Assembly: GCA_016790225.1 (NCBI GenBank)
Contig: JAEUOZ010000074.1
Coordinates: forward strand, 1-64,000
Direction: 5' to 3'
Source: Rubrivivax sp.
Lineage (GTDB): Bacteria; Pseudomonadota; Gammaproteobacteria; Burkholderiales; Burkholderiaceae
DNA: 64,000 nt
Shown here: positions 1,316 to 27,667 of the stretch, piece by piece
Layout: every line of letters starts with the position of its first letter
Position numbering within the stretch: position 1 is the first letter of the stretch
The notes under the pieces: model-generated
Told to the model about the DNA's origin: nothing
Database searches by the model: none
What the model saw: the letters and a program-made list of their open reading frames with translations, nothing else
Position numbers and translations under genes: made by a program

Positions 1316-1373
1316 GGGGGCCGATTATCCCACCCACCTAGAATCCCGGCCTTTCCCGCCCCCCCAAGATTGC

Positions 1374-4300
1374 ATGCCTGCGTCGCCCTTGTTCCTGCAG
1401 TTCTTCGAGGGCGGTAATGCCCTGAGCGCATTCCGGGCCGAGGCGTTGCTCAGGCGGCTGCAGCAGGCCTGCCCGAGGATTGCTGCCGTGGCGGCGCGCC
1501 AGGTCCACTGGGCGGCGTTCGACGCCGCGCCGGACCGGGCGGCCCTGGACAAGCTGCAGGGCCTGCTGGCCTACGGTGATGCCTACCACGGCCCGACCGA
1601 GGGTGACCTCGTCGTCGTCATGCCGCGCCTGGGCACCGTGTCGCCCTGGGCCAGCAAGGCGAGCGACATCGCGCGCAACTGCCTGGTCGGCGCGGACCGT
1701 GCCGGTGGCGGCCTCGCCCTGCACCGCATCGAACGCGTCACCGAGGTGCGGCTGGCGGTGAAGGCCGGCCTGCTCGGCGCCGGCAAGCCGCTCTCGGCCG
1801 ACGAACGCGCGGCCGTGGCGGCGCTGCTGCACGACCGCATGACCGAGAGCGTGGCCTTCGAGCGCGACGCGGCACGCCGCCTCTTCGAGCCGCAGCCGGC
1901 GCCGCCGCTGGCGCACGTGGACGTGCTCGGCCGTGGCCGCGAGGCGCTCGTCGCGGCCAACGTCGAGTTCGGGCTCGCGCTCTCCGACGACGAGATCGAC
2001 TACCTCGTCGCTGCCTTCAGGAAGCTGGCGCGCAACCCGAGCGACGTCGAGTTGATGATGTTCGCGCAGGCCAACAGCGAGCACTGCCGGCACAAGATCT
2101 TCAACGCCCGCTTCAGCATCGACGGGCAGGAGCAAGCCCACACGCTGTTTGGCATGATCCGCCACACCGAGCAGGTGTCGCCGCAGCACAGCGTGGTGGC
2201 CTACAGCGACAACGCCGCCGTGATGGAAGGCGGGCCGGTGCAGCAGTGGCTGCCGCAGGGCTTCACCAACGCGCCGATCTATGGGCCGCGGGAGAGGCTC
2301 TCGCATGTGCTGATGAAGGTGGAGACGCACAACCACCCCACGGCCATCAGCCCGTTCCCGGGGGCGGCCACCGGCGCGGGCGGCGAGATCCGCGATGAAG
2401 GCGCCACGGGCCGCGGTGCGCGCCCGAAAGCCGGCCTCACGGGCTTTTCCGTCGGCCATCTGCACCTGCCTGACACCGACGAACCCTGGGAAAGCCAGCC
2501 CATCGGCAAGCCGGCGCACATCGCGAGTGCGCTGCAGATCATGATCGAAGGCCCGCTGGGTGGCGCGGCCTTCAACAACGAGTTCGGTCGGCCCAACCTG
2601 GGCGGCTATTTCCGCGTCTACGAGCAGGCCGTGGCCGGCGTGCAGCGGGGTTACCACAAGCCCATCATGATCGCGGGCGGCCTGGGCGCCATCGATGCGA
2701 GCCAGACGCACAAGAAGCCCTTTGCGCCGGGCACGCTGCTGATCCAGCTGGGCGGGCCCGGCATGCGCATCGGCATGGGCGGCGGCGCAGCGAGTTCCAT
2801 GGCGGCGGGCAGCAACACCGCGGCGCTGGACTTCGATTCCGTGCAGCGCGGCAACCCGGAGATCCAGCGGCGCGCGCAGGAGGTCATCAACCACTGCTGG
2901 GCGCTGGGCGAGAACAACCCCATCCTCGCCATCCATGATGTGGGCGCGGGCGGCATCAGCAATGCCTTTCCTGAGCTGGTGGACGGCGCGGGCCGCGGTG
3001 CCGTCTTTGACCTGCGCCAGGTGCCGCTGGAAGAGAGCGGTCTCGCGCCCAAGGAAATCTGGTGCAACGAGAGCCAGGAGCGCTACGTGCTGGCACTCGA
3101 TCCGGATCTGCTGCCGCTGTTCAGACAGATATGCGAGCGCGAGCGCTGCCCCTACGGCATCGTCGGCCGCGCAACGGCGCAGCCGGAACTCGTGCTGGAG
3201 GATGGCCCGGGCGGCGAACGCGCGATCGACATGCCGCTGGATGTGTTGCTGGGCAAGCCGCCCCGCATGCACCGCGAGGTGCAACGCATCGTGCGCGCCG
3301 AGCCGGCGCTGGATCTGACCGGCTGCCAGCTCGAACCGCTGGCCTTTGCGGTGCTGCGGCACCCCACGGTGGCCAGCAAGCGCTTTCTGATCACCATCGG
3401 CGACCGCACGGTCGGCGGGATGAGCCACCGCGATCCCCTGGTCGGACCCTGGCAGGTGCCGGTGGCCGATTGCGCCGTGACGCTGGCTGACTTTGCCGGC
3501 CTGCGCGGCGAGGCGATGGCGATGGGCGAGCGAACGCCCTTGGCGGCGCTGGATGCGCCGGCCTCTGGCCGCATGGCCGTGGCCGAGGCCCTCACCAACC
3601 TGCTGGCCGCGCCCATCACGCTCAGCCGTGTGAAGCTCAGCGCCAACTGGATGGCCGCTTGCGGCGAACCGGGCGAGGATGCGGCGCTCTTCGATACCGT
3701 GAAGGCCGTGGGGCTGGAGCTCTGCCCGGCGCTGGGCATCGGCATTCCCGTGGGCAAGGATTCGCTGTCCATGCGCACACGCTGGCAGGACGATCAAGGC
3801 GCCCAGCAGCAGGTGCTGGCGCCGGTGTCACTGATCGTCAGCGCCTTTGCAACGCTGGACGACGTGCGTGGCACGCTGACGCCCCAGCTGCAGCCCGGCG
3901 ACACCACGCTCGTGCTGGTGGATCTGGGCTGCGGCCGCATGCGCATGGGCGGCTCGATGCTCGCGCAGGTGCTGGGCCGCTTTGGCCATGAGGTGCCCGA
4001 TCTGGATGAGCCGCAGCGGCTGAAGTCGCTCGTCAGCGCCGTGAATGCGCTGCGCGAGCGCGGCCTGATCCTCGCCTACCACGACCGCAGCGATGGCGGC
4101 CTGTGGGCGGCGGTCTGCGAGATGGCCTTTGCGGGGCATTGCGGCGTCAGTCTGAATGTGGACATCCTGGTTACCGAGAGCGATGGCATCCAGGACAGCC
4201 GGGCCGAATACGGCGATTCCAAGAACTGGGCCGGCCAGGTCAGCGAGCGCCGCAAGGAGCTGACGCTGCGCGCCCTGTTCAACGAAGAGCTGGGGGTGGT

Positions 4301-5396
4301 GCTGCAGGTGCCGACGGCGCAGCGCAACGAGGTGATGCACCTGCTGCGCGAGCACGGCCTCAGCCGCCACAGCCACTTCATCGGCAAGACCAACGAGCGC
4401 GCGACCGTGGAGGTCTGGCGCGATACCAAGCTGCAGCTGGCTGCGTCGCTGCAGAGCCTGCACCAGGCCTGGGACGAGGTGAGCTGGCGCATCGCCCGGC
4501 TGCGCGACAACCCGGCCTGTGCCGACGCCGAACACACGGCCGCCGGCGCGCCGGACGACCCGGGCCTGCACGCCGAGCTGCGCTTCGATCCGGCCGAGGA
4601 TGTGGCGGCGCCCTTCATCGCGCGCGGCGTGAGGCCGGCGGTGGCCATCCTGCGCGAGCAGGGCGTGAATTCGCAGGTGGAGATGAGCCGCGCCATGGAT
4701 CTGGCGGGCTTTTCCACCTACGACGTGCACATGAGCGATCTGCTGGCCGGCCGTGCGCGGCTGGATCAGTTCCAGGCCTTTGTCGCCTGCGGCGGATTCA
4801 GCTATGGCGACACCCTGGGTGCCGGCGAGGGCTGGGCGCGCACGATCCTGTTCAACCCGCGCCTGGCAGAAGCCTTTGCGGCCTTCTTCAACCGGGCCGA
4901 CACCCTGGCCCTGGGCGTGTGCAACGGCTGCCAGATGATGGCTGCTCTGAGCCCGTTGATTCCGGGCGCCCAGGACTGGCCGCGCTTCACGCGCAACCTG
5001 AGCGAGCAGTTCGAGGCGCGGCTGTCCCTGGTGGAGGTTCTGGAGAGTCCCAGCGCCTTCTTCACCGGCATGGCGGGCAGCCGGCTGCCGATTGCCGTGG
5101 CGCACGGCGAAGGCCGGGCGGACTTCACCCAGCGGGGCAACGCGGCCCGCGTGCACCGTGCCATGCGCTTTGTCGATCACCACGGTCGTGCGACGGAGGC
5201 CTACCCTTTCAACCCGAACGGCAGCCCGGAAGGCCTGACCGCCGTGACCACGGCCGATGGCCGCTTCACGGCCCTGATGCCGCACCCGGAGCGGGTCTTC
5301 CGCCACGCGCAGATGAGCTTTGCCGCGGGCGGCGACCTCACGACCGCCAGCCCCTGGATGCGCCTCTTCCGCAACGCCCGGCGGTTTATCGGCTGA
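1374..5396 (+). CDS. purL: Phosphoribosylformylglycinamidine synthase (FGAM synthetase, large single-chain form)
   Basis: PurL converts FGAR, glutamine and ATP to FGAM in de novo purine synthesis. The 1340-residue protein is the fused proteobacterial form (E. coli 1295 residues). It has an N-terminal PurS-like part, two AIR-synthase-like ATP-binding halves and a C-terminal class I glutamine amidotransferase. The motif [19 protein letters not shown] marks the synthetase active region. The amidotransferase nucleophile is Cys1183 in GVCNGCQMM, and the His/Glu pair lies in PHPERVF near the C-terminus. The frame stays open upstream to 1149, but that part overlaps map antisense. The ATG at 1374 gives the family N-terminus ([11 protein letters not shown]). 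Confidence 0.97.
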
Positions 5397-5429: not shown

Positions 5430-6263
5430 GTGACCACTGAACTGCCTGTCCGCCGACTGCTGGTCGATCTGAAGACGCCCTTTCCGCGGCACTGGTGTGG
5501 CGCGGATGCGTTCCGCACGGCCTTGTTCAATGCGCTGTCGATGAGCTTTCCCGTGGGGGAGCAGTTCTTCATCGACTCGGTCCGCCAAGGGCTGGAGCGG
5601 TTGCCGGCCGCGCGCCGCGCGGACTTCGAGGCAGAGGTGCGCGGCTTCATCGGCCAGGAAGCCACGCACCGCCATGTGCATGCGCAGTTCAACACCCATC
5701 TGGCGCAGCAGGGCCTGATCAACCACTGGGAGCCGCGCGCACGCCAACGTCTCAAGCGATTGGACGGCATCGATGCGCGCGCCTGGCTGGGCCTGACCGC
5801 TGCGACCGAGCACTTCACGGCGGTGCTGGCCGAGTACCTGCTGGAAAACGATGCGCCGCTCGCAGGCTGCGAGCCGCGCCTGCGCGAGCTGTGGCTGTGG
5901 CACAGCAGCGAGGAGAGCGAGCACCGCAGCACGGCCTTCGATCTCTACCGCGCGCTGGGCGGCAACGAGCGCTGGCGCAAGCGCCTGTTCTGGATCGTGA
6001 CCTGGCACTTCAGCACCGATCTGGCGCGCCAGACGCTGAACAACCTCTGGCACGACGGCAGCTGGTGGCGCCTTTCCACCTGGGCCAGCGCCTGGCGCCA
6101 TACGCTGGGTCGGGACGGCTTTGTTCGCCGCACCTTTGGCAGCTGGCGCGCCTACCTGCGTGCCGACTTCCACCCCTCACAGGGCCGCACGGAGCCCGGC
6201 CGGCGCTGGCTGGCGGATCATCCGCAGGTGGCCGTGCCGCTGCGCCCGGGCCTGGAGGGGTGA
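5430..6263 (+). CDS. Predicted metal-dependent hydrolase, PF10118 / COG3687 family
   Basis: This 277-residue all-helical protein belongs to a family annotated as predicted metal-dependent hydrolases; its real substrate is not established. It has ferritin-like Glu/His motifs: GQEATHRHVH at about residues 75-84, TEHFTA at about 127 and SSEESEHRSTAFDL at about 155. These could bind a di-metal centre. The start is a GTG 33 bp after purL; ATGs further upstream are out of frame. It is convergent with the YjbR-YdeI gene, with 10 bp between the stops. No signal peptide or membrane segment is visible, so it is probably cytosolic. Confidence 0.8.
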   Translation: MTTELPVRRLLVDLKTPFPRHWCGADAFRTALFNALSMSFPVGEQFFIDSVRQGLERLPAARRADFEAEVRGFIGQEATHRHVHAQFNTHLAQQGLINHWEPRARQRLKRLDGIDARAWLGLTAATEHFTAVLAEYLLENDAPLAGCEPRLRELWLWHSSEESEHRSTAFDLYRALGGNERWRKRLFWIVTWHFSTDLARQTLNNLWHDGSWWRLSTWASAWRHTLGRDGFVRRTFGSWRAYLRADFHPSQGRTEPGRRWLADHPQVAVPLRPGLEG

Positions 6264-6273
6264 CGGGCAGGAC

Positions 6274-7290
6274 TCAGCCCGTCTTGGGCGTCCACTGGTT
6301 GGCGCGCTGGTTCGCGGCCGCCTTGCGGGCCGTCTCCTGCACGCGGGCCGCGCGCGTCTGGGGCCGCCTGGCGGTGTGGATCCACTCCAGGATGCCGCGG
6401 CGCGCTGAGCGCGGGAAGGCGGCAAAGTGCTGCTCGGCGCCCGGCAGGGCGGCCAGCGCGGCGGCCAGATCCGGCGGCACGACCAGGTCTTCCACCGCGT
6501 CCAGGCTGGTCCAGGAGCCATCGGCCTTGGCCGCCTCCACCTTGGCCAGCGCGGCCGGCATCATCAGGCCCGCGGCCAGCAGGCGCTCGATGCGCCGCTT
6601 GTTGGGCCTGGACCAGCCGGTGCGCGGCTGGCGTGGCGCAAACCAGAGCAGCGAGCGGTCCGCGTCCAGCTTGTTGACCTTGCTGTCGACCCAGCCGAAG
6701 CACAAGGCTTCTTCCACCTGATCGTCATAGCTCAGGCGCGGCTGCCCGGTGTGCTGTTTCCAGCCGACAAACCACACGCCTTCCGGTCGGCTGGCATGGG
6801 CCTGCAGCCAGGCGCGCCACTCGGCGCGTGTCAAGGGGTGCACGGAATTGGCTGGGGCACCGGGCGTGGTGCCAGGCAAGGCGGCAGGGCCACGGGCTGG
6901 CGCTTCAGCCGCCACGCGCGCGGCGGGCGCGGTTTCGATGTCTGGGGGCCCTGGCGGCGCCGGCGTCTGGTCGACACCCTTTGCCGCCGGCATCTTGTGC
7001 TGCCAGGCCTCGCGGATCCAGCCCTTGACCAGGGCCGCGTCAGCGCCGTTGAGCACCACCCGCATGCCGACCACCTTGCCACCCCACAGCAGCTTCTCGG
7101 CGACGGCCGGCCAGGCGGCCAGGGCTTGCTCGCGCACGGCTTCGGGCACGAAGAGGTGCAGGTGCGTCTGCTCGGGCGGTACGGTGACGAAGATCCTGCC
7201 GGTGACGCGGAAGCTGCCGAAGTGGTGATGCGGCTCCTCGGTCACGCCGGGCAGGCTCATCGCGAAGCGTCGCACCTGGGTCATGTTCAT
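6274..7290 (-). CDS. MmcQ/YjbR domain fused to YdeI/OmpD-associated domain
   Basis: The 338-residue product joins two small domains usually found as separate proteins. Residues 1-105 are MmcQ/YjbR-like (start MNMTQVRRFAMSLPGV, then FGSFRVTGRIFVT), a double-wing fold implicated in DNA binding. Residues about 155-338 are YdeI-like, with HPLTRAEWRAWLQAH, EEALCFGWVDSKVNKLDADR, WFAPRQPRTGWSRPNKRR and ARRGILEWIHTARRPQTRA, ending in the usual AANQRANQW. A Pro/Ala-rich linker of about 45 residues joins them. The ATG at 7288-7290 was chosen because the upstream frame is low-complexity and outside the family. The function is not known. Confidence 0.8.
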   Translation of the reverse strand: MNMTQVRRFAMSLPGVTEEPHHHFGSFRVTGRIFVTVPPEQTHLHLFVPEAVREQALAAWPAVAEKLLWGGKVVGMRVVLNGADAALVKGWIREAWQHKMPAAKGVDQTPAPPGPPDIETAPAARVAAEAPARGPAALPGTTPGAPANSVHPLTRAEWRAWLQAHASRPEGVWFVGWKQHTGQPRLSYDDQVEEALCFGWVDSKVNKLDADRSLLWFAPRQPRTGWSRPNKRRIERLLAAGLMMPAALAKVEAAKADGSWTSLDAVEDLVVPPDLAAALAALPGAEQHFAAFPRSARRGILEWIHTARRPQTRAARVQETARKAAANQRANQWTPKTG

Positions 7291-7391
7291 CAGCGGTTCA
7301 TCCCGGGTCGTGCACGCAGTTCGTGGAAGGTGCTGAAAGCGCATCGAAGCCGGCGCGGGATCATGCGGCCCGCAGCCCGGTGCGACATCGC

Positions 7392-10300
7392 TCAGAGCCT
7401 GAGCGCGATGACGCCATCCGGCCCCGCGCGAGAGCAGCACAGGATGATGCGCTCTTCGCGTTCGCGCGCCGAAAGCACGACATCGCGGTGCTCCACACTC
7501 TGCGACTGCGCCGCATCGTAGGGCAGCGCGCAGACGCCGCACAGGCCGTCGGAGCACTTGGTGCTGATCGCAAACCCGTGGGCCGACAGCACCTCGGTGG
7601 CGCTTTGTCCGGCCGCGACCGGCAGCACGCGGCCACTGCCGAGCAGCTTCAGGCTGAAGGGGTGGTTTTCGCGCGCCGGGGCTTCGGGCAGGCTGAAGTA
7701 TTCGCGGTGCAGCGCCTCGGGTGGCCAGCCCGCGGCCTGGGCGACGCCAAAGACCGCATCCATGTAGCGCGCCGAGCCGCAGGCATAGAGCTGCTGCCCG
7801 GCCTGCCAGGGCCGGATCAGCTGCGCCAGATCGGCGCGACGGCCTTCGTCCTTGATGTGCAGCTGCACCTGCGAAGCCCAGGGCGCGGCTTGCAGCTCCT
7901 CGATGAAGCCGGCTTCGCGGCGCGAGGCCACGCTGTAGTGCAGTTCGAAGGCGCGTCCCAGTGCATGCAGGCGGTGCGCCATGCTGATCAGCGGCGTGAC
8001 GCCGATCCCGCCCGCCATCAGCCAGGACTTCACCGCCTCTTCCTGCAGGGCAAACAGGTTGCGGGGGCGTGAGACGAAGACTTTGCGGCCCGGCCGGAAG
8101 GCGCGGTGCATCAGCGCCGAGCCGCCCCGGCCGCCGTGCTGCGGATCTTCACGCTGCACGCCCAGCACCCAGCGCCCGCGCTCGGCCGGATCGCCGGCCA
8201 GGCTGAAGGCGCGCAGGTATTCGGGCGCGATCACCACATCGATGTGCGCGCCGGCCTCGAAGGGTGGCAGCTCGCGGCCGGGCGTGGCGATCAGCTCATA
8301 ACGTGCGATGTTGGGTGTCATGTCGGTGCGCGCGGCCAGCTGCACGGCAAAGACCGGCGGTTCACCTTCGGGCATGCGGAAGGGCGGCGCCAGGCCTTCC
8401 GTGCGCTGCTGGGCGAGCCGCTCACGGTATTGCGCGGGTGTCAGCAGTTGCCGGTAGCGTGTGATGCCCTCTTCGCGGTTGACCGGATGTGCCACGGGCC
8501 AGGGCGGCGGCATGCGATCGGCCGGGTAGACCGCAAGGGTCTGCTCCTCGGCGCGCAGCGTCAGATCGGGCTGCAGGCCGCGGCGGTGTGTCTGGCGCGC
8601 CCGCACGTATCGGCCGCTGCCGCGATCGAGCTCGATGTCCCACCACCAGGTCTTCACCGGGTTGATGCCGCCGCGGCCCAGGCGGTCATCCAGCGCGGCC
8701 AGGCGCCGCGCCTGCGAAGGCACGTGGCTTGCCACCCAGCGCCACACACGGTCTGCGAGCAGGCCTTCGAGATTCCAGGGGCAGGTCTTCATGCAGCGTC
8801 CGCACATGCCGCCGCCGGCATTCGTGATGCGGTAGCGCGCGCACTTCTCGGCATCGCTCTTCCAGATCTCGTAGCCGTTGTACATGAGCTTGGGCCCGGC
8901 CGTGATCGCGCCGGAAGGGCACTCGCGCGCGCACTTGTTGCACTGCTCGCAGAAACGCTGCAGACCAAAATCGATGGGCTGATCGGGCGCCATCGGCATC
9001 GAGGTGGTCACCGTGCCGCTCTTCAGGCGCGGGCCGAGGAAGGGGTTGAGGATGACCTCGCCGATGCGGCTGACTTCGCCGAGCCCCGACAGCAGCAGCA
9101 GCGGCGGCTGCAGCACATCGCCATCCAGCACGCTGTGCACGCGGGCGCTGTAGCCCAGGCGGCGGATCTGCTCGGCGACCACGCCGCCGATCATGGAAAA
9201 GCGCAGGTAGGCGCGCATGCTCTGTGCGACGCTGATCCAGTCGTCGCCGCTGGCGCCTTCCATGGTCTCGTGACCCTGGTCGATCAGCAGGTTGACGGCC
9301 TGCTCGTGATAGGCCGGCAGCGGGTTGCCGCCGGCATCGTGCGAATACCAGGCCCACTCGGGCACGGCGCACAGGCCCACGGCATCGCTGCCCAGGTAGT
9401 AGGCGGCTGCCTTGAGATTGCGGGCATTGGTTCGGGCGTCCGACGTGGTGGCCGACACCGGCCCGCGCGCCGGCCCGAACTGCAGCAGCAGCAGCGCACC
9501 CAGCGCGCGCCGCGCGCAGGCGCCGATGGGGCTTTTCATCACGTAGTGCGCATTGCGCGCGCCGTCCTGCACCTCGCGGCCCAGATCGCCGAACAGCGCG
9601 CGGGCAAAAAAGTCCGCCCGCTTCGGGAATCGCGGCACGCGCGGCTGATCGATGAAGGTGGTGGGCTGCTCGCGCCGCGCCAGGCTCTCGAACGGGTGCG
9701 GGCCGAGGTGGAATTCGCGCTGGCGGTAGGGGTCCTGGTGGTGCGCGCCCTTCAGCGTGCCCAGGCCCAGCTGCCAGGCCAGGCCGTGAGAGCGCCGCCG
9801 GTCCTGCGCGGCCTTGGGCGCCAGGGGCACATCGGCCAGCAGCTCGCACAGCGTGGTCACCGCGGCCAGGCCGTAGCGCCGCCCGAGGTACGGGTTGTCC
9901 AGATCCTCGTGCGACAGGCCGGCCGCCACCGCCAGCGTGTGCAGGCAGACCTCGCTGCAGGTGGCGGTGTGCGAGCGCGCCTCGAAGCCCAGCATGCGCA
10001 GGTAGCTGGCCAGCAGCACGGCGGTCTGCGCCGCCAGCAAGGCAGCCCGGTGCGCCTGCGTGCCGTCCAGCCAGGCGCCGCCAGGCTCTTCGGGCCGCGG
10101 GTCGCGCGGGTACTCCACCAGGACGACCAAGGCATGGCTGTGGTGGCTGACCGGGCCGCGCCGCGCGCGCGCCGCGTCCATCACATCGGCCAGGATCATG
10201 TCCATGCCGGCCGCAAAGCTCTGCGGCTGGCTCGCGGCGAGTTGTTCGGCGATGGCGTCGGTCTGCGGGTTGCGCAGGGGTGTGTCCAGCAGGGCGGCCA

Positions 10301-10610
10301 CCGGCAGCGCGCAGATGCCCATCATCGAGGCATCGAAGTAGTAGCCCGCGGCCTTCAGGTGCCGCGCGCGTTCGGCCGGGTCTTCAGGGATCTCGGCGCG
10401 CAGCGGCGCCACCGGGCCATCGCGCACCACGTCGAACATGCCGAGGTAGGGCCGCATCGCATGGCCCAATGAATGCGGCGCCAGCGCATCGAAATCCAGC
10501 GCCGTCATGCGCGGCACCTCGCTGAGCGCCACACCCGCACGGCGGGTGAGCCGCTCCAGCGGATAAGGCCCCAGGTGGACCGGGCGATCGCGGTAGGAGA
10601 AGAGGCGCAT
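7392..10610 (-). CDS. Self-sufficient reductive dehalogenase: RdhA-like corrinoid/Fe-S domain fused to NAD(P)H-flavin-[2Fe-2S] reductase
   Basis: This 1072-residue protein looks like a cytosolic catabolic reductive dehalogenase of the BhbA/NpRdhA type. Such enzymes remove halogen from halo-phenols or halo-hydroxybenzoates with a cob(I)alamin centre. Residues 1-300 and 300-540 are related halves of the corrinoid-binding region. Ser464, Tyr468, Lys530 and Arg594 have the same spacing as the active-site Ser422, Tyr426, Lys488 and Arg552 that I recall for NpRdhA. Two [4Fe-4S] clusters follow: Cys554/557/560/564 and Cys590/603/606/610. Residues 750-1072 resemble phthalate dioxygenase reductase: FMN motif RAFSLAG (800-806), NAD(P) motif MAGGIGVTP (865-873), and plant-type [2Fe-2S] cysteines 1019, 1024, 1027 and 1058/1059. 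There is no Tat signal, and no rdhB anchor gene is adjacent, so electrons probably come directly from NAD(P)H. The substrate is unknown. The ATG at 10608-10610 is preferred over upstream in-frame starts. Confidence 0.88.
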   Translation of the reverse strand: MRLFSYRDRPVHLGPYPLERLTRRAGVALSEVPRMTALDFDALAPHSLGHAMRPYLGMFDVVRDGPVAPLRAEIPEDPAERARHLKAAGYYFDASMMGICALPVAALLDTPLRNPQTDAIAEQLAASQPQSFAAGMDMILADVMDAARARRGPVSHHSHALVVLVEYPRDPRPEEPGGAWLDGTQAHRAALLAAQTAVLLASYLRMLGFEARSHTATCSEVCLHTLAVAAGLSHEDLDNPYLGRRYGLAAVTTLCELLADVPLAPKAAQDRRRSHGLAWQLGLGTLKGAHHQDPYRQREFHLGPHPFESLARREQPTTFIDQPRVPRFPKRADFFARALFGDLGREVQDGARNAHYVMKSPIGACARRALGALLLLQFGPARGPVSATTSDARTNARNLKAAAYYLGSDAVGLCAVPEWAWYSHDAGGNPLPAYHEQAVNLLIDQGHETMEGASGDDWISVAQSMRAYLRFSMIGGVVAEQIRRLGYSARVHSVLDGDVLQPPLLLLSGLGEVSRIGEVILNPFLGPRLKSGTVTTSMPMAPDQPIDFGLQRFCEQCNKCARECPSGAITAGPKLMYNGYEIWKSDAEKCARYRITNAGGGMCGRCMKTCPWNLEGLLADRVWRWVASHVPSQARRLAALDDRLGRGGINPVKTWWWDIELDRGSGRYVRARQTHRRGLQPDLTLRAEEQTLAVYPADRMPPPWPVAHPVNREEGITRYRQLLTPAQYRERLAQQRTEGLAPPFRMPEGEPPVFAVQLAARTDMTPNIARYELIATPGRELPPFEAGAHIDVVIAPEYLRAFSLAGDPAERGRWVLGVQREDPQHGGRGGSALMHRAFRPGRKVFVSRPRNLFALQEEAVKSWLMAGGIGVTPLISMAHRLHALGRAFELHYSVASRREAGFIEELQAAPWASQVQLHIKDEGRRADLAQLIRPWQAGQQLYACGSARYMDAVFGVAQAAGWPPEALHREYFSLPEAPARENHPFSLKLLGSGRVLPVAAGQSATEVLSAHGFAISTKCSDGLCGVCALPYDAAQSQSVEHRDVVLSAREREERIILCCSRAGPDGVIALRL

Positions 10611-10939
10611 GGGGGAGGTTCGTTCAACCGCGGCGCTGCGGCCGGCGTCCCGGCGCGCGCAGCCACGCGGTGTGGCTTGTACCCGATTCTTCAGCGCACA
10701 AGCACTCCAGGCCGGCAAGCACGGGTGGTCGCCGCCGCGCCGGCTTCGCGCGAAGCCGGCCGTCCTGAACGGCACCCGCCGTCTGGCTTGTCCTGCAGCA
10801 CATGACAAAAGACCCGAGAAATCTGGGGTTATCGCGCATTGCCTTCAGGACCCAGCACCGACATTCCTGCTGCGGCCGTCATCAGCCGGTCACAAACGAT
10901 CGCTCCACAACCTGGCGACAAAGATCAGAGAGACCCAGC
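10611..10939. other. Divergent intergenic region between the dehalogenase and chemoreceptor genes
   Basis: These 329 bp separate two divergently transcribed genes and should hold both promoters. The only clear structure I see is the 22-bp palindrome listed separately. There is no convincing -35/-10 pair, sigma-28 site, riboswitch or small gene. In particular, I see no cobalamin riboswitch in front of the corrinoid enzyme. Confidence 0.6.
10739..10760. repeat. 22-bp perfect palindrome upstream of the reductive dehalogenase gene
   Basis: The sequence reads identically on both strands (half-site GCCGGCTTCGC). It lies about 130 bp upstream of the dehalogenase start and 180 bp upstream of the chemoreceptor start. 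It could be a dimeric regulator's operator or a stable hairpin in a leader RNA. No U-tract follows, so a simple terminator is unlikely. Palindromes are commoner in GC-rich DNA, but a perfect 22-mer is notable. Confidence 0.5.
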
Positions 10940-12511
10940 GTGCGCAACAACCAACCCGTCACCGAACGAGAGTTTGCATTTCCCGACAACACCACGCTGC
11001 TGTCGGTGACCGATACCGACAGCCGCATCCGCTACGCCAACGAGGCGTTTGTGGCCACCAGCGGCTTCACGCGGGAGGAGCTGATCGGACAACCCCACAA
11101 CCTGGTCCGGCACCCGGACATGCCCACCGAGGCCTTTGCCGACATGTGGGCCACACTGAAGGCCGGCGAAGCCTGGTCGGCCCTGGTCAAGAACCGCCGC
11201 AAGGACGGCGACCACTACTGGGTGCGTGCCAATGCCACGCCGGTGCGGCGGCATGGGCGGCTGGTGGGCTACCTCTCGGTGCGCACCAAGCCTTCACGTG
11301 CCGAGATCGATCAGGCCGAGGCGCTCTACCGGGATCTGCGCGAAGGACGGGCCCAGGGCCGTGCGGTGCGCAAGGGGCTGGTGGTGCGTACCGGCTGGAT
11401 GGGCTGGACCAGCGCGCTGCAGACGATGTCCGTGTCGCGCCGCATTCAGGTGGCGCTGGCGGCCCAGTGGATGGCGTTGACGGGTGCGGGCTGGGCCATG
11501 GGGCTTGGTGGGGCCACCTGGGGCGCCCTCAGCGGCGCTGCGGGCGCGGCCGCCCTGTTGAGCGGGCTCTGGCTGAGGCAGCAACTCGTCAAGCCGCTGC
11601 AGGCTGTGCTGGGCGCGGCCAATGCCGCGGCTGCCGGCAGCCCACAAGCCGGCGCATACCTGGATCGCAGCGATGAGCTGGGCATGCTGATGCGTGCGGT
11701 CAACCAGAGCGCATTGAACCTGCAGTCGCTGCTGGACGACGTCTCGCGCCAGGTCGGTGGCCTGCAGACGGCCAGTGCCGAGATCGCCAGCGGCAACCAG
11801 GATCTGAGCTCGCGCACGGAGCAGACCGCCAGCAGCCTGGAGCAGACGGCCTCCGCGATGGAGGAGTTCAGCGCCACGGTGCGCCAGACAGCCAGCCACG
11901 CGCAGGAGGCCCGCTCGCTGGCGGAATCCGCGGCCCAGGTGGCCAGCCAGGGCGGCGAGGTGGTGTCCGAGGTGGTGCAGACCGTGCGCGGCATCAACGA
12001 GAGCAGTCGGCGCATCGCGGACATCATCGGCGTCATCGACAGCATCGCCTTCCAGACCAACATCCTCGCCCTCAATGCGGCCGTGGAAGCGGCCCGTGCC
12101 GGCGAGCAGGGGCGGGGTTTCGCGGTGGTGGCCTCCGAAGTGCGCAACCTCGCGCAGCGCAGCGCCAGCGCCGCCCAGGAGATCAAGCAGCTGATACAGG
12201 ACTCCGTGCAACGCGTGGAGCGCGGCACCGAACTCGTGGACAAGGCCGGCGCGACCATGGGTCAGGTGGTCGGCGCCATCGGCCGCGTGTCGCAGATCGT
12301 GGCCGAGATCAGCACGGCTTCCAGCGAACAGAGCACCGGTGTCGTGCAGATCGGTCAGGCGGTGGCCAGCATGGACCAGGCCACCCAGCAGAACGCGGCC
12401 ATGGTGGAGCAATCCACAGCGGCAGCCCACAGCCTGAGCAGCCAGACCCGTTCGCTCGCGCAGGCCGTCTCGGTATTCAAGTCCAGCGAACGGGACGCCG
12501 TCGCGGCTTGA
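10940..12511 (+). CDS. PAS-containing methyl-accepting chemotaxis protein, Aer-like
   Basis: This 523-residue chemoreceptor probably senses redox or oxygen and signals to CheA/CheW. A PAS domain occupies about residues 8-120 (N-terminus [12 protein letters not shown], then [20 protein letters not shown]), as in Aer-type aerotaxis receptors. A hydrophobic hairpin at about 170-210 would anchor it in the inner membrane without a periplasmic sensor. A HAMP-like linker and the long signalling coiled coil follow. The conserved tip ([20 protein letters not shown], then [15 protein letters not shown]) lies at about residues 368-405. I chose the GTG at 10940 because the family motif begins there, with an AGAGAGA stretch about 7 bp upstream. 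It is convergent with rlhA, 6 bp apart. Confidence 0.87.
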
Positions 12512-20247: not shown

Positions 20248-21129
20248 TCAGTTCAGGGTCGGTGCGGCCTTCAGGCCCAGGCGCTGGCGGGCCTCGGCCG
20301 GCGTGGCAATGCCGCGCCCGGCGCGTTGCGCGCAGGCGGCCAGCGCCTCGATCAGCTCGCCATTGCCGCGGGCGCGGGTGCCGTCGGGCAGGTAGAAGGT
20401 GTCTTCCAGACCCGTGCGCAGCATGCCGCCCAGATCGGCCGTCTTCTGGTGCACGGGCCAGATCTCGGCGCGGCCGATCAGCGTGGTCTGCCACACGGCG
20501 CCGGGCGCCATCCAGCGCGGCAGCAAAGCGAGCAGATCCGCATCGCAGGGCATGCCGCTGGCCACACCCATCACGAAGTTGTACTCCGGCACGCCGCTGA
20601 AGAGGCCGGCCTTGAGGTACATGCCGACCGCGCGCACGATGCCCACATCGAAGCACTCGAACTCCGGGTGCGTGTCGGCCGCATTCATGGCGGCCAGCAT
20701 CTGCTCGATCTTGGCCACCGGGTTGTCGAAGACCATCGGCGGCCAGGCCCATTGCCCGTTGTCCTTGATCTTCAGGTAGTTCAGGCTGCCGGCATTGCAG
20801 GCGGCGATCTCTGGCTTGACCCGTTCGATGCAGGCCACGGGGCCGGACACATCCTTGCCCACCACACCGGTGGTGAGGTTGATGATCACGCCGGGGCAGG
20901 CCGCGCGGATGGCCTCGCACACCGCCTGGGCCACATCAGGGTCCCAGCTGGGCATGTGGCCCTGGCCTTCTTCCTGGCGGCGCAGATGCACATGCATGAT
21001 GCTCGCGCCGGCATTGAAGGCGTCGCGCGCCTCGGCCGCCATCTGCGCCGGCGTGACGGGCACCGGGTGCTGCCGCGGATCGGTGAGCACGCCCGTGAGC
21101 GAACAGGTGAGGATGGCGTTGTCAGGCAT
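20248..21129 (-). CDS. BKACE family (3-keto-5-aminohexanoate cleavage enzyme-like, DUF849)
   Basis: This family condenses a beta-keto acid with acetyl-CoA and splits it into acetoacetate and a new acyl-CoA, using Zn2+. The 293-residue protein has the zinc ligands His46 and His48 in ASIMHVHLR and Glu242 in RTGLEDTFYL, matching the Kce pattern. GDP-like and TIM-barrel strands such as VIINLTTG are present. Its ATG overlaps the stop of the biotin carboxylase gene by 8 bp, so the two are surely co-expressed. In this operon it may take the place of an HMG-CoA-lyase-type step, since no such lyase is present. The substrate is not known. Confidence 0.88.
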   Translation of the reverse strand: MPDNAILTCSLTGVLTDPRQHPVPVTPAQMAAEARDAFNAGASIMHVHLRRQEEGQGHMPSWDPDVAQAVCEAIRAACPGVIINLTTGVVGKDVSGPVACIERVKPEIAACNAGSLNYLKIKDNGQWAWPPMVFDNPVAKIEQMLAAMNAADTHPEFECFDVGIVRAVGMYLKAGLFSGVPEYNFVMGVASGMPCDADLLALLPRWMAPGAVWQTTLIGRAEIWPVHQKTADLGGMLRTGLEDTFYLPDGTRARGNGELIEALAACAQRAGRGIATPAEARQRLGLKAAPTLN

Positions 21130-23020
21130 CGTCGTCGAGCTCCAGTTCGATCATCACTTCGCCCCCGGCCACCGGGGCACGCAAGGCCACATGAACGGCC
21201 TTCACGGTGCCGGCCGCGGCCGCCGTGATGCCCATCTCCATCTTCATGGCTTCCACGCTGGCCAGCAGCTGCCCGGCGCTGACGCGATCGCCGGCCTGTA
21301 CCTGCAGTGCGCTCACCACACCCGCCACCGGCGCGCGTGCCTTGGACGGATCCACCACCGCATCTCGCACCGGGTAGGGCGAGGGTTCGGTGAAGACGAA
21401 GACGGCCCCCTCGATCGACAGGTGCAGCGCGGCCGGCTCGCGCAGCGCCGGCAGGCGCCGCCAGCAGCCTTCCACCGACACGCGCAGCCAGCCCTCCCGC
21501 AAGGCGGCCACCTCGACCCCGGCGACCGGCAGGCGCAAGCTGCGCCGCTCGGCGCCGCATTGCAGCGTGAGATCGGCGCCGCTGACGCTGGCCGGCCGGG
21601 CCCCAGGTTCGCCGGCCCACACGGCCGCGGCGATGCGCCAGGCGGTGACGTCCGGCAGCGGGCGCTGCAGCAGGGGCGCGCCCTCGGCGGCCCATTCGTC
21701 CAGGCGCGTGGTGCTGAGCTGCGCTGCGCTGAACTGCGGGTGCAGCAGCAGATCGCGCAGAAAGCGTCCGTTGTTGCACAGCCCGAAGAGCGGCACGTCT
21801 TCCAGCGCCCGTGTCAAACGCCTGACCGCATCGGCACGGTCGCTGCCGTGGGCGATCAGCTTGGCCACCATTGCATCGTAGTAGGGCGTCACCTCGCCAC
21901 CGGCCACGATGCCGTCGTCGATGCGGATCTGCGCATCCTGCGGGCGCCAGCCGGCGATGCGCCCGGTCTGGGGCGACCAGCCATCGCAGGGATCTTCGGC
22001 GATCAGGCGCGCTTCGATCGCGTGGCCCTGGAAGCGCAGCTCGTGCTGTTGCAGCGGCAAGGGCTCGCCAGCGGCCACGCGCAGTTGCCACTCCACCAGA
22101 TCCAGCCCGGTGACGGCCTCGGTGACGGGATGTTCGACCTGCAGGCGGGTATTCATCTCCAGAAAGAAGTGGTTCATCTGTCCATCGACGATGAACTCCA
22201 CCGTGCCGGCGCCGCGGTAGCCCACGGCCCGCGCCGCGGCTACCGCCGAGGCGCCCATGGCCTCGCGCAGCGCCGCATCCACCACGGGCGAAGGCGATTC
22301 CTCGATGACTTTCTGGCGCCGCCGCTGGGCTGTGCAATCGCGCTCGCCCAGGTGGATGACCTGGCCGTGTGCATCGGCAAAGACCTGGATCTCGATGTGG
22401 CGGCCGTGCTCGACAAGGCGCTCCAGCATCAGGGTGCCGTCGCCGAAGGCGCTGTGGGCCTCGCGACGGGCTGCAGCCAGCGCCGCGGGCAGCTCGGACG
22501 CGTCCCGCACCAGCCGCATGCCGCGGCCGCCGCCGCCGGCCACGGCCTTGACGAGCAGCGGCAGGCCCAGATCCAGGGCGGCGGCCTGCAAGGCTTCGTC
22601 CCGCTGATCCTCGCCCAGGTGGCCAGGCACGCAGGGCACGCCGGCCGCGAGCATGCGCCGCTTGGCGCCGGCCTTGTCACCCATCGCCGTGATGGCGGCG
22701 GCCGGCGGCCCGATGAAGACCAGGCCGGCGTCGGCGCAGGCCTGAGCCAGCTCGGCCCGCTCGGAGAGGAAGCCATAGCCGGGGTGCAGCGCATCCGCTC
22801 CGGTCAGCCGGGCTGCCTGCAGCAGGGCTTCGATGCGCAGATAGGACTCGGCGGCCGGCGCCGCGCCGATGGGCACGGCCTCGTCGGCCATCTGCACGTG
22901 GGGCGCGCGGGCATCGGCTTCGCTGAAGACGGCCACGCTGCGATAGCCCAGCCGGTGCGCGGTGCGCATCACACGGCAGGCAATCTCGCCGCGGTTGGCG
23001 ATCAGGATCTTGCGGAACAC
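21122..23020 (-). CDS. Acyl-CoA carboxylase alpha subunit (biotin carboxylase plus biotin carrier domain)
   Basis: The 632-residue subunit carboxylates its own biotin with ATP and bicarbonate and hands CO2 to the beta subunit. Residues 1-450 are biotin carboxylase: MFRKILIANRGEIACRVMRT at the start, and the ATP-grasp loop VAGGGGRGMRLV at about 160. A linker/BT-like region follows, then the biotinyl domain, with the target Lys593 in VEAMKMEMG. The size fits 3-methylcrotonyl-CoA (LiuD) or geranyl-CoA (AtuF) carboxylase alpha subunits rather than AccC alone. The order beta, dehydrogenase, hydratase, alpha in this operon matches both pathways. Sequence alone does not decide the substrate. Confidence 0.88.
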   Translation of the reverse strand: MFRKILIANRGEIACRVMRTAHRLGYRSVAVFSEADARAPHVQMADEAVPIGAAPAAESYLRIEALLQAARLTGADALHPGYGFLSERAELAQACADAGLVFIGPPAAAITAMGDKAGAKRRMLAAGVPCVPGHLGEDQRDEALQAAALDLGLPLLVKAVAGGGGRGMRLVRDASELPAALAAARREAHSAFGDGTLMLERLVEHGRHIEIQVFADAHGQVIHLGERDCTAQRRRQKVIEESPSPVVDAALREAMGASAVAAARAVGYRGAGTVEFIVDGQMNHFFLEMNTRLQVEHPVTEAVTGLDLVEWQLRVAAGEPLPLQQHELRFQGHAIEARLIAEDPCDGWSPQTGRIAGWRPQDAQIRIDDGIVAGGEVTPYYDAMVAKLIAHGSDRADAVRRLTRALEDVPLFGLCNNGRFLRDLLLHPQFSAAQLSTTRLDEWAAEGAPLLQRPLPDVTAWRIAAAVWAGEPGARPASVSGADLTLQCGAERRSLRLPVAGVEVAALREGWLRVSVEGCWRRLPALREPAALHLSIEGAVFVFTEPSPYPVRDAVVDPSKARAPVAGVVSALQVQAGDRVSAGQLLASVEAMKMEMGITAAAAGTVKAVHVALRAPVAGGEVMIELELDDDA

Positions 23021-23132
23021 GGCTCATCTCCAGGGCCGCGTGCGGCGGTCAAACCCGGGGACACGCCCCGCGCGGGCAAGGCTGCCGCATCACCGCTTGG
23101 CCAGGCCGGCCCGCAACGGGTGCCAGCCTGCC

Positions 23133-23987
23133 TCATGCCGGCGGCGCCCAGCTGGGCTTGCGCCGCGCCACGGCGGCGGACATGCCCTCCACGCCTTCCG
23201 GCCCGCGGGCGGCGCGCGAAAAGGCGGCAGCAGCGGTGCTGATCATCGCGGCCGGCGCCAGCAATCGGCCTTGCGCGAGCAGCGCCTTGGTCGAGGCGAT
23301 GGCGCCCGGCGCGCACTGCAGGATCTCGCTGCACACACGCGCCACGGCGGCGTCCAGCTGCGAGCTTTCGTGCACCTCGTGCACCAGGCCGATGCCCAGC
23401 GCCTGCGCAGCGCCGAGCCGGCCGCCGGTGACGGCCAGGCGCTTGGCCTGCGAGTAACCCAGGCGTTCGGTGAGGAAGGGCGCGATCTGCGCCGGCAGCA
23501 CGCCCAGCGAGGTCTCGGGCAGGCGGAAGGCCACGTCGTCGCTGGCCAGGGCGACATCGGCCACGCAGGCCAGCCCGAAGCCGCCGCCCATCACGGTGCC
23601 TTCCAGCACGGCAACGGTGGCCAGGCCGGTAGCCGCGTAGGCCACGCAGAGTTCGCCGAAGCGGGCGTTGATGTCGGCGATCGGGTCAGCCGAGGGCTCG
23701 ATCTGGCGATCACGGTCATCGCCCTGCGCCGCACGGGCCTGGGCCTGCACCATGTCTTTCAGGTCGGCGCCGGCGCAGAAGTGGCCGCCGGCGCCGCGAA
23801 GCACCAGCACGCGCACCAGCTTGCCCGCTTGGGCGGCGGAGAGCACCTGCCGCAGCTCGCGCACCATGGCCATGGTCATCGCGTTGCGCGCATCCGGGCG
23901 GTTCAGCGTCACATGCAGCACCGCGCCGTCGCGGTGCACGTGCAGGGCCTCCCAGGTTCGGGCTTCGGGGGCGTCTTCGGGGCTCAT
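23133..23987 (-). CDS. Enoyl-CoA hydratase/isomerase family protein (AtuE/LiuC-like)
   Basis: The 284-residue crotonase-fold enzyme probably hydrates the glutaconyl-CoA formed after carboxylation. The oxyanion-hole motifs are GAGGHFCAGADLKDM (about residues 66-80) and TVMGGGFGLACVADVALAS (about 130-150). The second catalytic Glu is present in RLPETSLGVLP. The first is replaced by Gly, since the usual GGGxELA reads GGGFGLA, so the chemistry may differ from ordinary crotonase. Unlike its counterpart in the + strand operon, it is a single-domain protein. It lies between the acyl-CoA dehydrogenase and the carboxylase alpha gene in the leftward operon. Confidence 0.85.
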   Translation of the reverse strand: MSPEDAPEARTWEALHVHRDGAVLHVTLNRPDARNAMTMAMVRELRQVLSAAQAGKLVRVLVLRGAGGHFCAGADLKDMVQAQARAAQGDDRDRQIEPSADPIADINARFGELCVAYAATGLATVAVLEGTVMGGGFGLACVADVALASDDVAFRLPETSLGVLPAQIAPFLTERLGYSQAKRLAVTGGRLGAAQALGIGLVHEVHESSQLDAAVARVCSEILQCAPGAIASTKALLAQGRLLAPAAMISTAAAAFSRAARGPEGVEGMSAAVARRKPSWAPPA

Positions 23988-24062
23988 GGGTTCCTCATGG
24001 GGCAGATGACCGCGCGTTCTGCGGGCAGCGCGCAGTGTCCCGCGCGGGCGGGGGCCTGCGGA

Positions 24063-25214
24063 TCAGGCCTTCCCCGGCAAGGTGCCTTCGAGCTTGCAGA
24101 TGATGCCCAGCATGATCTCGTCAGCGCCGCCGCCGATGGAGGTGAGCCGGCCGTCGCGGAAAGCCTGCGAGATCGGGTTGTCGGCCGTGAAGCCCATGCC
24201 GCCCCAGTACTGCAGGCAGCTGTCGGCCACCTCGCGCGCCAGGCGGCCGCATTTGAGCTTGGCCATGCTGGCCAGCTTGGTGACGTCCTTGCCGCTCACA
24301 TAGAGTTCGACGGCTCTCCAGGTGAGGGCGCGCAAGCACTCGACTTCGGTGCGCAGTTCGGCCAGGCGGAAGTGGACGACCTGGTTGTCGAGGATGCTCT
24401 TGCCGAAGGCCTTGCGCTCGCGCGTGTAGTCGATGGTCAGGTCGATCAGCCGGTCCAGCCCGCGCAGCGAGGAACAGGCGGCCCACAGGCGCTCTTCCTG
24501 GAACTGCAGCATCTGGAAGGTGAAGCCCAGGCCTTCCTGGCCGATGAGGTTGCGCTGGGGCACACGCACGTTGTCGAAGAAGATCTGGCCGGTGTCCGAG
24601 GCGTGCATGCCGATCTTGTGGATCTTCTGGCGCGTGATGCCGGGCGCATCCATGGGCACGACGATCAGGCTCTTGTTCTTGTGCGCCGGGCCTTCGCTGG
24701 TGTTGGCCAGCAGGCAGCACCAATCGGCCTGCAGCGAGTTGGTGATCCACATCTTGGTGCCGTTGATCACGTAGTCGCCGCCCTCCTTGCGGGCGCTGGT
24801 CTTGCAGGCTGCGACATCCGAACCGCCGCCGGGCTCGCTGACGCCGAGGCAGGCCACATAGTCGCCGCTGATCGTGGGCGTCAGATATTCCTTGCGCAGC
24901 TCGTCGCTGCCGAAGCGGGCGAGCGCCGGCGTGGCCATGTCGGTCTGCACGCCGATGGCCATGGGCACGGCGCCGCAGCTGCAGCTGCCCAGCGCCTCGG
25001 CCATGACGGCGCTGTAGCTGAAATCGAGCCCGGCACCGCCGTAGGCCTCGGGATATTTCAGTCCCAGCAGACCCAGGTTGCCGAGCTTCTTGAACACCTC
25101 GTGCGCCGGAAAGATCTCGGCCTTCTCCCACTCGGGCACATGCGGGTTCACCTCTTTTTCGATGAAGCGGGTGACGGTGTCGGCGATCTGTCGGTGTTCA
25201 GGCGTGAGTTGCAT
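24063..25214 (-). CDS. Acyl-CoA dehydrogenase, citronellyl-CoA/isovaleryl-CoA dehydrogenase-like
   Basis: This 383-residue FAD enzyme introduces a 2,3-double bond into an acyl-CoA. It has the N-terminal helical, beta-barrel (CLGVSEPGGGSDVAACKT) and C-terminal helical domains of the family. Near the C-terminus, QYWGGMGFTADNPISQAFRD is followed by SIGGGADEIMLGIICK. The usual Glu of the YEGT motif is therefore absent, as in isovaleryl-CoA dehydrogenase, where the base sits elsewhere. The ending GADEIMLGIICK resembles what I recall of citronellyl-CoA dehydrogenase AtuD, but I cannot verify this without alignment. A long repeat-rich gap separates it from the carboxylase beta gene upstream. Confidence 0.87.
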   Translation of the reverse strand: MQLTPEHRQIADTVTRFIEKEVNPHVPEWEKAEIFPAHEVFKKLGNLGLLGLKYPEAYGGAGLDFSYSAVMAEALGSCSCGAVPMAIGVQTDMATPALARFGSDELRKEYLTPTISGDYVACLGVSEPGGGSDVAACKTSARKEGGDYVINGTKMWITNSLQADWCCLLANTSEGPAHKNKSLIVVPMDAPGITRQKIHKIGMHASDTGQIFFDNVRVPQRNLIGQEGLGFTFQMLQFQEERLWAACSSLRGLDRLIDLTIDYTRERKAFGKSILDNQVVHFRLAELRTEVECLRALTWRAVELYVSGKDVTKLASMAKLKCGRLAREVADSCLQYWGGMGFTADNPISQAFRDGRLTSIGGGADEIMLGIICKLEGTLPGKA

Positions 25215-25412
25215 GGGGTGGCCTTGTCTCTGGATTGCTTGGGTGGTGGCTGGCGCTTCTCAGGTCATTGGCGGTGCCGGACCGGTGGGGTGGCTCTTGT
25301 GGCGGCTTGCGCGCGGGAGACCTCGCGTCGCGGCGGGCGGCGGGGCTTGTCGAGCTCAGGCTCGGCCGGTCGGCCCTGCAGGCCGACTCCGCTGCGCTTC
25401 TCGGCACGGGAT

Positions 25413-25803
25413 CGCACCGCCCAACTCGCTGCGCGCCGTGCCGGCGCTCCGCTCAGACAGTGGCGGTGAGTCAGATCACGAAGCGCGCTGCGCGCGCCGA
25501 TCCCGCACCTGCGATGCTCGCCGCCCGACATTCGCCCGCCAAGCCCCACCGCCCGCCGCGAGACAGCCGAGTGAGAACTCGAAGCTTGGAACGCCAAGGC
25601 GAGCCTGAGAAAGACCGTCCTTCCACGACCTTCGCGCGCTCTGTCGGTGCCACAAAGCCGAGGGTGGCTTCGCGCGGCCACCCATGGGGCGCGTCGAGGA
25701 GCGCAGCGGCCGGGGCGGCGCGCGTGAGCGCGCTTCGTCATCTGACTCACCGCCGCTGTCCGAGCGCAGCGCCCGGGGGGCGCGGAGCGAGTTGGGCGGT
25801 GCG
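25413..25803. repeat. Long imperfect inverted repeat, 77-nt arms
   Basis: The arms are 25413-25489 and 25727-25803. By hand, the first arm matches the reverse complement of the second at 68 of 77 positions without gaps. The 237-nt spacer contains the first arm of a second inverted repeat. The best-preserved parts are CGCACCGCCCAACTCGCT at one end and GGCGGTGAGTCAGAT near the other. Confidence 0.85.
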
Positions 25804-25887
25804 CCTCGGTCGTGAGCACCGCAGAGGCGTCGGGCCATCGGCCCGACCGCGCCCGCTGGGTGGCCGCGCGAAGCCACCCTCGGCTTT
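25654..25887. repeat. Perfect inverted repeat, 31-nt arms
   Basis: The arms are 25654-25684 and 25857-25887, perfect reverse complements over 31 nt (core AAAGCCGAGGGTGGCTTCGC). It interleaves with the 77-nt inverted repeat: its spacer encloses that repeat's second arm. Two interlocked palindromes could form alternative RNA or DNA structures. They may be the footprint of one repeat copy inserted into, or inverted beside, another. Confidence 0.85.
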
Positions 25888-25971
25888 GCCACAACGCATC
25901 ACAAGACCGAGCCCCCAACAAGCCACATCGCGCCCACCACTCGACAACCGACCACGAGCAGCCAGCCCACC

Positions 25972-27582
<1,611 letters not shown>

Positions 27583-27617
27583 TTGCAGGCTCCTGATGGC
27601 GCGTGCCGGCGGTTCGT

Positions 27618-27646
27618 CGGTCGGCGCTCGCAGAGCGCGCCGACCG
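27618..27646. other. Stem-loop between SDR and carboxylase beta genes
   Basis: A perfect 10-bp stem (CGGTCGGCGC paired with GCGCCGACCG) closes a 9-nt loop in the 85-bp gap between two co-directional genes. No run of T follows on either side, so it is probably an mRNA stability or processing hairpin rather than a terminator. Confidence 0.45.
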
Positions 27647-27667
27647 GGCCGATGGCGCCAGCCGGCT

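Follow-up and report, generated by a model that had tools for sequence, protein, structure and literature searches.

A gene for a probable self-sufficient catabolic reductive dehalogenase in Rubrivivax sp. and its betaproteobacterial relatives

Self-sufficient catabolic reductive dehalogenases form an already described class of enzymes for which NAD(P)H is the direct source of electrons, and the occurrence of catabolic reductive dehalogenases in aerobic microbes is noted in a review (PMC6299022). JtRdhA of Jhaorihella thermophila, a member of this class that is active in air, is compared here by its published description (PMC10463259). BhbA, encoded on plasmid pBHB of Comamonas sp. 7D-2, is a second point of reference, and NpRdhA of Nitratireductor pacificus (PDB 4RAS, 6ZXU, 6ZXX, 6ZY0, 6ZY1), which has no reductase module, is a third. 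A Roseobacter debrominase, for which PMC13101508 places the two cluster motifs at residues 283-345, is by virtue of that placement a shorter enzyme of another layout than the protein considered here. The latter is encoded at positions 7392..10610 (minus strand) of a 64,000-nucleotide stretch of Rubrivivax sp. DNA (contig JAEUOZ010000074.1, hereafter the window), in an open frame of 1072 residues plus stop that was recognized by the frame itself, an NCBIfam match and homologues. The gene is real and intact, and the protein's membership of a class that the literature already defines is well supported; nothing known about that class is changed by it. With a probability that we place at about 0.9, the protein is a cytoplasmic, self-sufficient catabolic reductive dehalogenase, driven by NAD(P)H and acting on ortho-halogenated phenols.

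Family assignment and domain architecture

Domain order, cofactor motifs, catalytic residues and agreement in fold were observed directly. The NCBIfam model RDH (TIGR02486) matches with 191.3 bits (cut-off 160.35). The closest solved structure by sequence is NpRdhA, with 495 bits over residues 156-733 and 70 bits over 1-102 (46% identity over 658 compared columns). For the RdhA part, the nearest solved structures are NpRdhA and then respiratory dehalogenases. Superposition on NpRdhA, the check proposed with the original prediction, shows that the folds agree, side chains being compared via sequence alignment only. Pfam-A, searched at E <= 1, yields 4Fe-4S families above cut-off and no reductive-dehalogenase family, so that the protein is named a dehalogenase on the strength of NCBIfam, homologues and structure.

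Part of this profile would also be shared by a reductase fusion built on epoxyqueuosine reductase (QueG), or on some other class III cobalamin enzyme, and directed at a non-halogenated substrate: PMC10463259 groups the two families within a single class of cobalamin enzymes, and the QueG family model does match residues 488-613 weakly. Its score there is 24 bits (cut-off 200), to be set against the 191 bits of the RDH model; the nearest solved structures of the RdhA part are those named above, all dehalogenases; and the residues with which NpRdhA binds the halophenol (S422, Y426, K488 and R552) are conserved across all aligned rows. We consider this alternative extremely improbable and retain the placement with RdhA rather than with epoxyqueuosine reductases, as originally predicted.

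The catalytic corrinoid/[4Fe-4S] core of the dehalogenase comprises residues 296-658 (8637..9725, on the minus strand like all features of the gene), as delimited by NCBIfam, the NpRdhA match and the fold. Two [4Fe-4S] cysteine motifs at residues 554-611 (8778..8951), taken from the alignment and the letters, read C554-x2-C-x2-C-x3-CP and C590-x12-C-x2-C-x3-CP, and their eight cysteines are identical across 205/205 aligned rows. Homologues and fold assign residues 749-1072 (7395..8366) to a phthalate-dioxygenase-reductase-type (PDOR) module; over residues 743-1066 the matches are to P450-fused reductases and phthalate dioxygenase reductase, and the Pfam reductase families fall narrowly under cut-off (DmmA-like, 31.7 of 33 bits; Fer2, 20 of 21). 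Three motifs are legible in the letters of this module: RAFSL (residues 800-804; 8199..8213), which we take to bind flavin mononucleotide (FMN); GGIGVTP (residues 867-873; 7992..8012), presumably the NAD(P)H-binding motif; and C-x4-C-x2-C-x30-C (cysteines 1019/1024/1027/1058; 7437..7556), assumed here to supply the [2Fe-2S] ligands. The pair of [4Fe-4S] motifs and the complete NAD(P)H-flavin-[2Fe-2S] reductase of the original prediction are both borne out by these results.

Neither a Tat-like (twin-arginine translocation) N-terminus nor a hydrophobic stretch of membrane strength was detected, by N-terminal sequence and hydropathy only. Respiratory reductive dehalogenases carry a Tat signal and have the membrane-anchor gene rdhB adjacent; a respiratory RdhA was considered and rejected, given the N-terminus and adjacent genes that encode a chemotaxis receptor and a YjbR/OmdA protein.

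Two further features had been overlooked. The first is a vestigial second copy of the cobalamin-binding domain at the N-terminus (residues 1-262; 9825..10610). When the two halves were aligned with hhalign, residues 7-262 proved to be a degenerate copy of 296-545 (probability 99.7%, 32% identity, 219 columns; three control pairs gave 0.2-0.3%), in which the sites equivalent to Tyr468 and Lys530 are not occupied by Tyr and Lys. Such a vestigial domain distinguishes catabolic from respiratory RdhAs, according to the JtRdhA paper (PMC10463259). The second, placed by alignment, is a 53-residue insert (residues 103-155; 10146..10304), which measures 52-53 residues in 203/204 fused rows, 4 in one row and about 12 in NpRdhA, where an insert of 53 residues is lacking. 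In the JtRdhA model, as described in the same paper, a fusion-specific insert folds over the active site, and we infer that the insert of the window protein is its counterpart. The duplicated cobalamin domain, the two [4Fe-4S] motifs, the PDOR module and the lack of a Tat signal are likewise common to the window protein and the JtRdhA description. BhbA, 50% identical to the window protein, has the same full-length architecture and catalytic residues, with an insert of 52 residues. The proposal of a self-contained dehalogenase is upheld by this shared architecture, the NpRdhA catalytic residues described below, and an N-terminus and hydropathy that suggest neither export nor a membrane anchor.

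Catalytic residues and the substrate pocket

The catalytic residues align with those of NpRdhA at exactly the spacing (4, 62 and 64) that had been noted from the letters. SMRAY (9207..9221) contains Ser464 and Tyr468, the proposed proton donor, corresponding to S422 and Y426; Lys530 (9021..9023) corresponds to K488, and Arg594 (8829..8831) to R552. F334, F335, M465 and H492 match in the same way, so that F290, F291, S422, M423, Y426, H450, K488 and R552 of NpRdhA are all conserved in the window protein. Six of these (F291, S422, M423, Y426, K488 and R552) are also reported for JtRdhA, and the roles given to individual residues come from the papers on the NpRdhA complex (PMC7565698) and on JtRdhA (PMC10463259).

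Elsewhere the pocket differs, with A419, N452, F310 and P311 of NpRdhA replaced by V461, V494, Y356 and V357, and the substrate may therefore differ from that of NpRdhA. The same four residues (Val419, Val452, Tyr310 and Val311 in NpRdhA numbering, used also below) occur in 26/26 Burkholderiales loci and in 119/119 listed proteins. Among 56 other fused loci, Val is found at 419 in all 56 and at 452 in 53, and position 290 is Met in 48. BhbA and its homologue in Nitratireductor OM-1 have Ser, Ala and Ser at 419, 452 and 310, that is, Ser and Ala where the window protein has Val461 and Val494, and Ser in place of Tyr356. This Ser/Ala pocket, beside protocatechuate-pathway genes, hints at a difference in substrate, in two examples only.

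Those two examples bear on a pathway like that of BhbA, in which 3,5-dibromo-4-hydroxybenzoate or a related compound would be dehalogenated to 4-hydroxybenzoate, which would pass to PobA. The genes for BhbA and the OM-1 homologue adjoin protocatechuate dioxygenase genes, OM-1 also having pobA nearby, and 3,5-dibromo-4-hydroxybenzoate is the best tested substrate of JtRdhA (PMC10463259). PobA scores above cut-off in 7/7 and 4/5 of the fusion-carrying genomes searched (11/12 together); it does so too in 65/97 other sampled family members, three known carriers having been removed, so that its presence gives weak support. The excess is not significant (Fisher one-sided p 0.07, in a comparison whose carriers are not all known members of the sampled family), and the PobA data are no more than compatible with a route via 4-hydroxybenzoate. 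Against this pathway in Rubrivivax stand the lack of any such gene among the 40 window proteins scanned, and the position of BhbA and OM-1 on a branch of their own with Ser and Ala in place of the Val461 and Val494 of the window protein's clade. The BhbA gene belongs to a catabolic cluster on its plasmid, together with protocatechuate 4,5-dioxygenase. A hydroxybenzoate pathway is a possible but doubtful reading. Homogentisate dioxygenase was above cut-off in 3/7 of the genomes.

Relatives, distribution and gene neighbourhoods

In a protein search, 2972 of the 7999 scored candidates reached E <= 0.001. Among the best 120, one is the window's own protein, and the other 119 have 1037-1105 residues and are 69-78% identical over 96-100% of the query. 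In a genome collection, 113 stretches encode relatives, of which 80 loci were kept; identities are 68-74% in Burkholderiales and 51-65% in Alphaproteobacteria. A quick maximum-likelihood tree of 110 rows, in which NpRdhA is a long branch and the root serves for drawing only, places the window protein in a clade of 51 rows that is betaproteobacterial wherever an organism is named (SH-aLRT 99). Its sister is a group of five alphaproteobacterial rows (100), and a roseobacter group (100) and the pair of BhbA and Nitratireductor OM-1 (100) are separate from it. Relatives from Limnohabitans, Ramlibacter, Rubrivivax and Hydrogenophaga, 68-74% identical, share the clade and the full-length architecture; roseobacter-type relatives are 51-58% identical. 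The reading as a dehalogenase survives this tree, which had been called for with the original prediction. The label 'BhbA-type' attached there is apt for the architecture and not for descent, in view of the separate clade and the different pocket residues.

The fusion is patchy but not rare. Of 399 members drawn evenly from the order that includes Ramlibacter rhizophilus, 11 match at E <= 1e-100, and two of these belong to the clade of the window protein: the centre genome and a partial member, which matches only residues 2-746 in a 761-residue frame. The remaining nine are 44-48% identical over approximately residues 153-787, the rest of the reductase module lying outside the match. A family sample also gave 11 matches in 399, eight in the clade (the centre included, one partial) and three of the other kind. 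The earlier description of such fusions as rare overstates the case for a named subfamily (PMC10463259) with over a hundred close relatives, though few of the sampled order and family members hold a relative of this clade. Eight plasmid records, that of BhbA included, cover at least 80% of the query. In three genomes (G186, G148 and G723), the match to an RdhA-part homologue of this other kind (44-45% identical) contains a single TGA; these copies are possibly broken or misassembled. By title and start of abstract, we found no literature on the clade in Limnohabitans, Rubrivivax or Burkholderiales other than the JtRdhA paper, whose tree legend (PMC10463259) names RdhAs of Burkholderiales bacterium JOSHI_001, Noviherbaspirillum and Ottowia.

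Gene neighbourhoods were compared for the window and 84 loci with our own caller of open reading frames, several contigs being short. No neighbour gene is common to the 27 Burkholderiales loci. A short-chain dehydrogenase cluster occupies the next downstream position in 12 of them, 11 belonging to the Limnohabitans branch, a few pairs of loci have one neighbour in common, and the neighbours in betaproteobacterial relatives differ from those in the window. A regulator of LysR, TetR or GntR type, on our reading of the sequence, adjoins the dehalogenase in five loci (L008, L067, L017, L018 and L022), so that absence of a regulator is not universal. A molybdenum-hydroxylase-like large subunit, so named from its sequence, occurs in 14 of the 85 neighbourhoods (e.g., alphaproteobacterial L043 and L044), at the third place downstream of the dehalogenase in 11 of the 14; it may act in the dehalogenase pathway.

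In the window, one flank of the dehalogenase gene encodes an M24 peptidase (methionine aminopeptidase-like), PurL (1323-5396), a Metal_hydrol family protein and a YjbR/OmdA protein, and the other a PAS/HAMP chemotaxis receptor, a U32 peptidase, a HAD hydrolase and an AAA ATPase; judged from these housekeeping neighbours, the gene is apparently chromosomal. Where the best relatives of this PurL bear an organism name, it is Rubrivivax, Leptothrix, Aquincola or an unclassified betaproteobacterium, so that the genome is Burkholderiales, in line with the original prediction. Linkage of rdhA and purL may be kept in a close relative (P0004/P0231). The original prediction that the gene stands alone holds as far as the scan extends, to 40 of the 48 other genes picked in the window (two of the 40 without a Pfam family). 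The mechanical open reading frame is longer (1138 residues, from a TTG upstream), and the ATG at 10610 is the likely start, since the alignments of NpRdhA and of 78/80 genome loci begin at residue 1 or 2. That the gene is decaying, or a passenger without a present function, might be suspected from its solitary position, the lack of a Shine-Dalgarno-like sequence before this ATG, and the patchy occurrence in sampled order and family members. Yet 1072 codons are open, the catalytic and cluster residues are conserved, the GC content (0.706) is near that of the window (0.700), and close relatives are equal in length with the same residues; we regard decay as very unlikely. Promoter and terminator scans of 6200-11100 gave results no better than shuffles, and the window contains no tRNA.

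Other genes nearby merit brief description. Directly downstream on the same strand (6274-7287, minus) a YjbR domain is joined to an OmdA/YdeI domain, and the named organisms among 120 listed relatives of this protein are Cyanobacteria or Chloroflexi; it could be a transferred gene. The chemotaxis receptor (10802-12511, plus) is divergent to the dehalogenase gene. A block at 20248-28606 (minus) encodes BKACE, biotin carboxylase, enoyl-CoA hydratase, acyl-CoA dehydrogenase, carboxyltransferase and short-chain dehydrogenase proteins, families whose matches would fit leucine/isovalerate breakdown.

Proposed reaction and biological meaning

By analogy with NpRdhA and JtRdhA, from which we infer the electron path, the chemistry, the oxygen tolerance and the preference for ortho-halophenols, NAD(P)H would reduce FMN, and electrons would travel one at a time via the [2Fe-2S] cluster and then the two [4Fe-4S] clusters to cobalamin in its base-off form. 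An ortho-halogenated phenol would lie with its halogen in contact with cobalt and its oxygen held by Lys530 and Arg594, together with Ser464; Tyr468 would donate a proton to yield halide and the dehalogenated phenol. The most likely activity of the enzyme is the removal of bromine, iodine or chlorine from phenol-like compounds. Of these halogens, bromine and iodine are the likelier, because JtRdhA (PMC10463259) turns over bromo- and iodophenols and not the chlorinated compounds tested; a halophenol or a hydroxybenzoate as the substrate is a guess. With lower confidence, the cell may use the enzyme alone, salvaging or detoxifying occasional natural halophenols, and the product may feed aromatic pathways elsewhere in the genome.

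Several results stand against this overall reading. Beyond the missing Pfam-A family, the four altered pocket positions and the frequency of PobA in other family members, no family for ring cleavage, halophenols or cobalamin was recognized in the 40 scanned window proteins, and Rfam at gathering threshold gave no match across the window, a cobalamin riboswitch included. In genomes of relatives, where cofactor supply was checked like product use, CobN gave matches under cut-off in 3/7 and BtuB-like receptors in 7/7. Nothing found contradicts the enzyme class itself, though Pfam-A at E <= 1 names no family for it.

The class is attractive for dehalogenating phenolic pollutants, since NAD(P)H supplies its electrons directly and JtRdhA is active in air. 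To it the window protein adds a betaproteobacterial example with a pocket that differs in its residues from both NpRdhA and BhbA, a useful starting point for the question of what determines the choice of substrate and halogen. Its clade spans Limnohabitans, Ramlibacter, Rubrivivax and similar lineages, mostly with no shared operon. We tentatively suggest, as a possibility that we would not favor, that this clade, marked by the conserved pair Val461/Val494 in its pocket, constitutes a functional group of its own that acts mainly on a common natural halophenol rather than on a hydroxybenzoate pollutant. The abundance of reductive dehalogenases is taken as a sign of anaerobic niches in a river metagenome paper (PMC12472701). 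On the same tentative footing, and because Limnohabitans carries the class, reductive dehalogenase genes in oxic fresh water might in part reflect aerobic salvage, not organohalide respiration.

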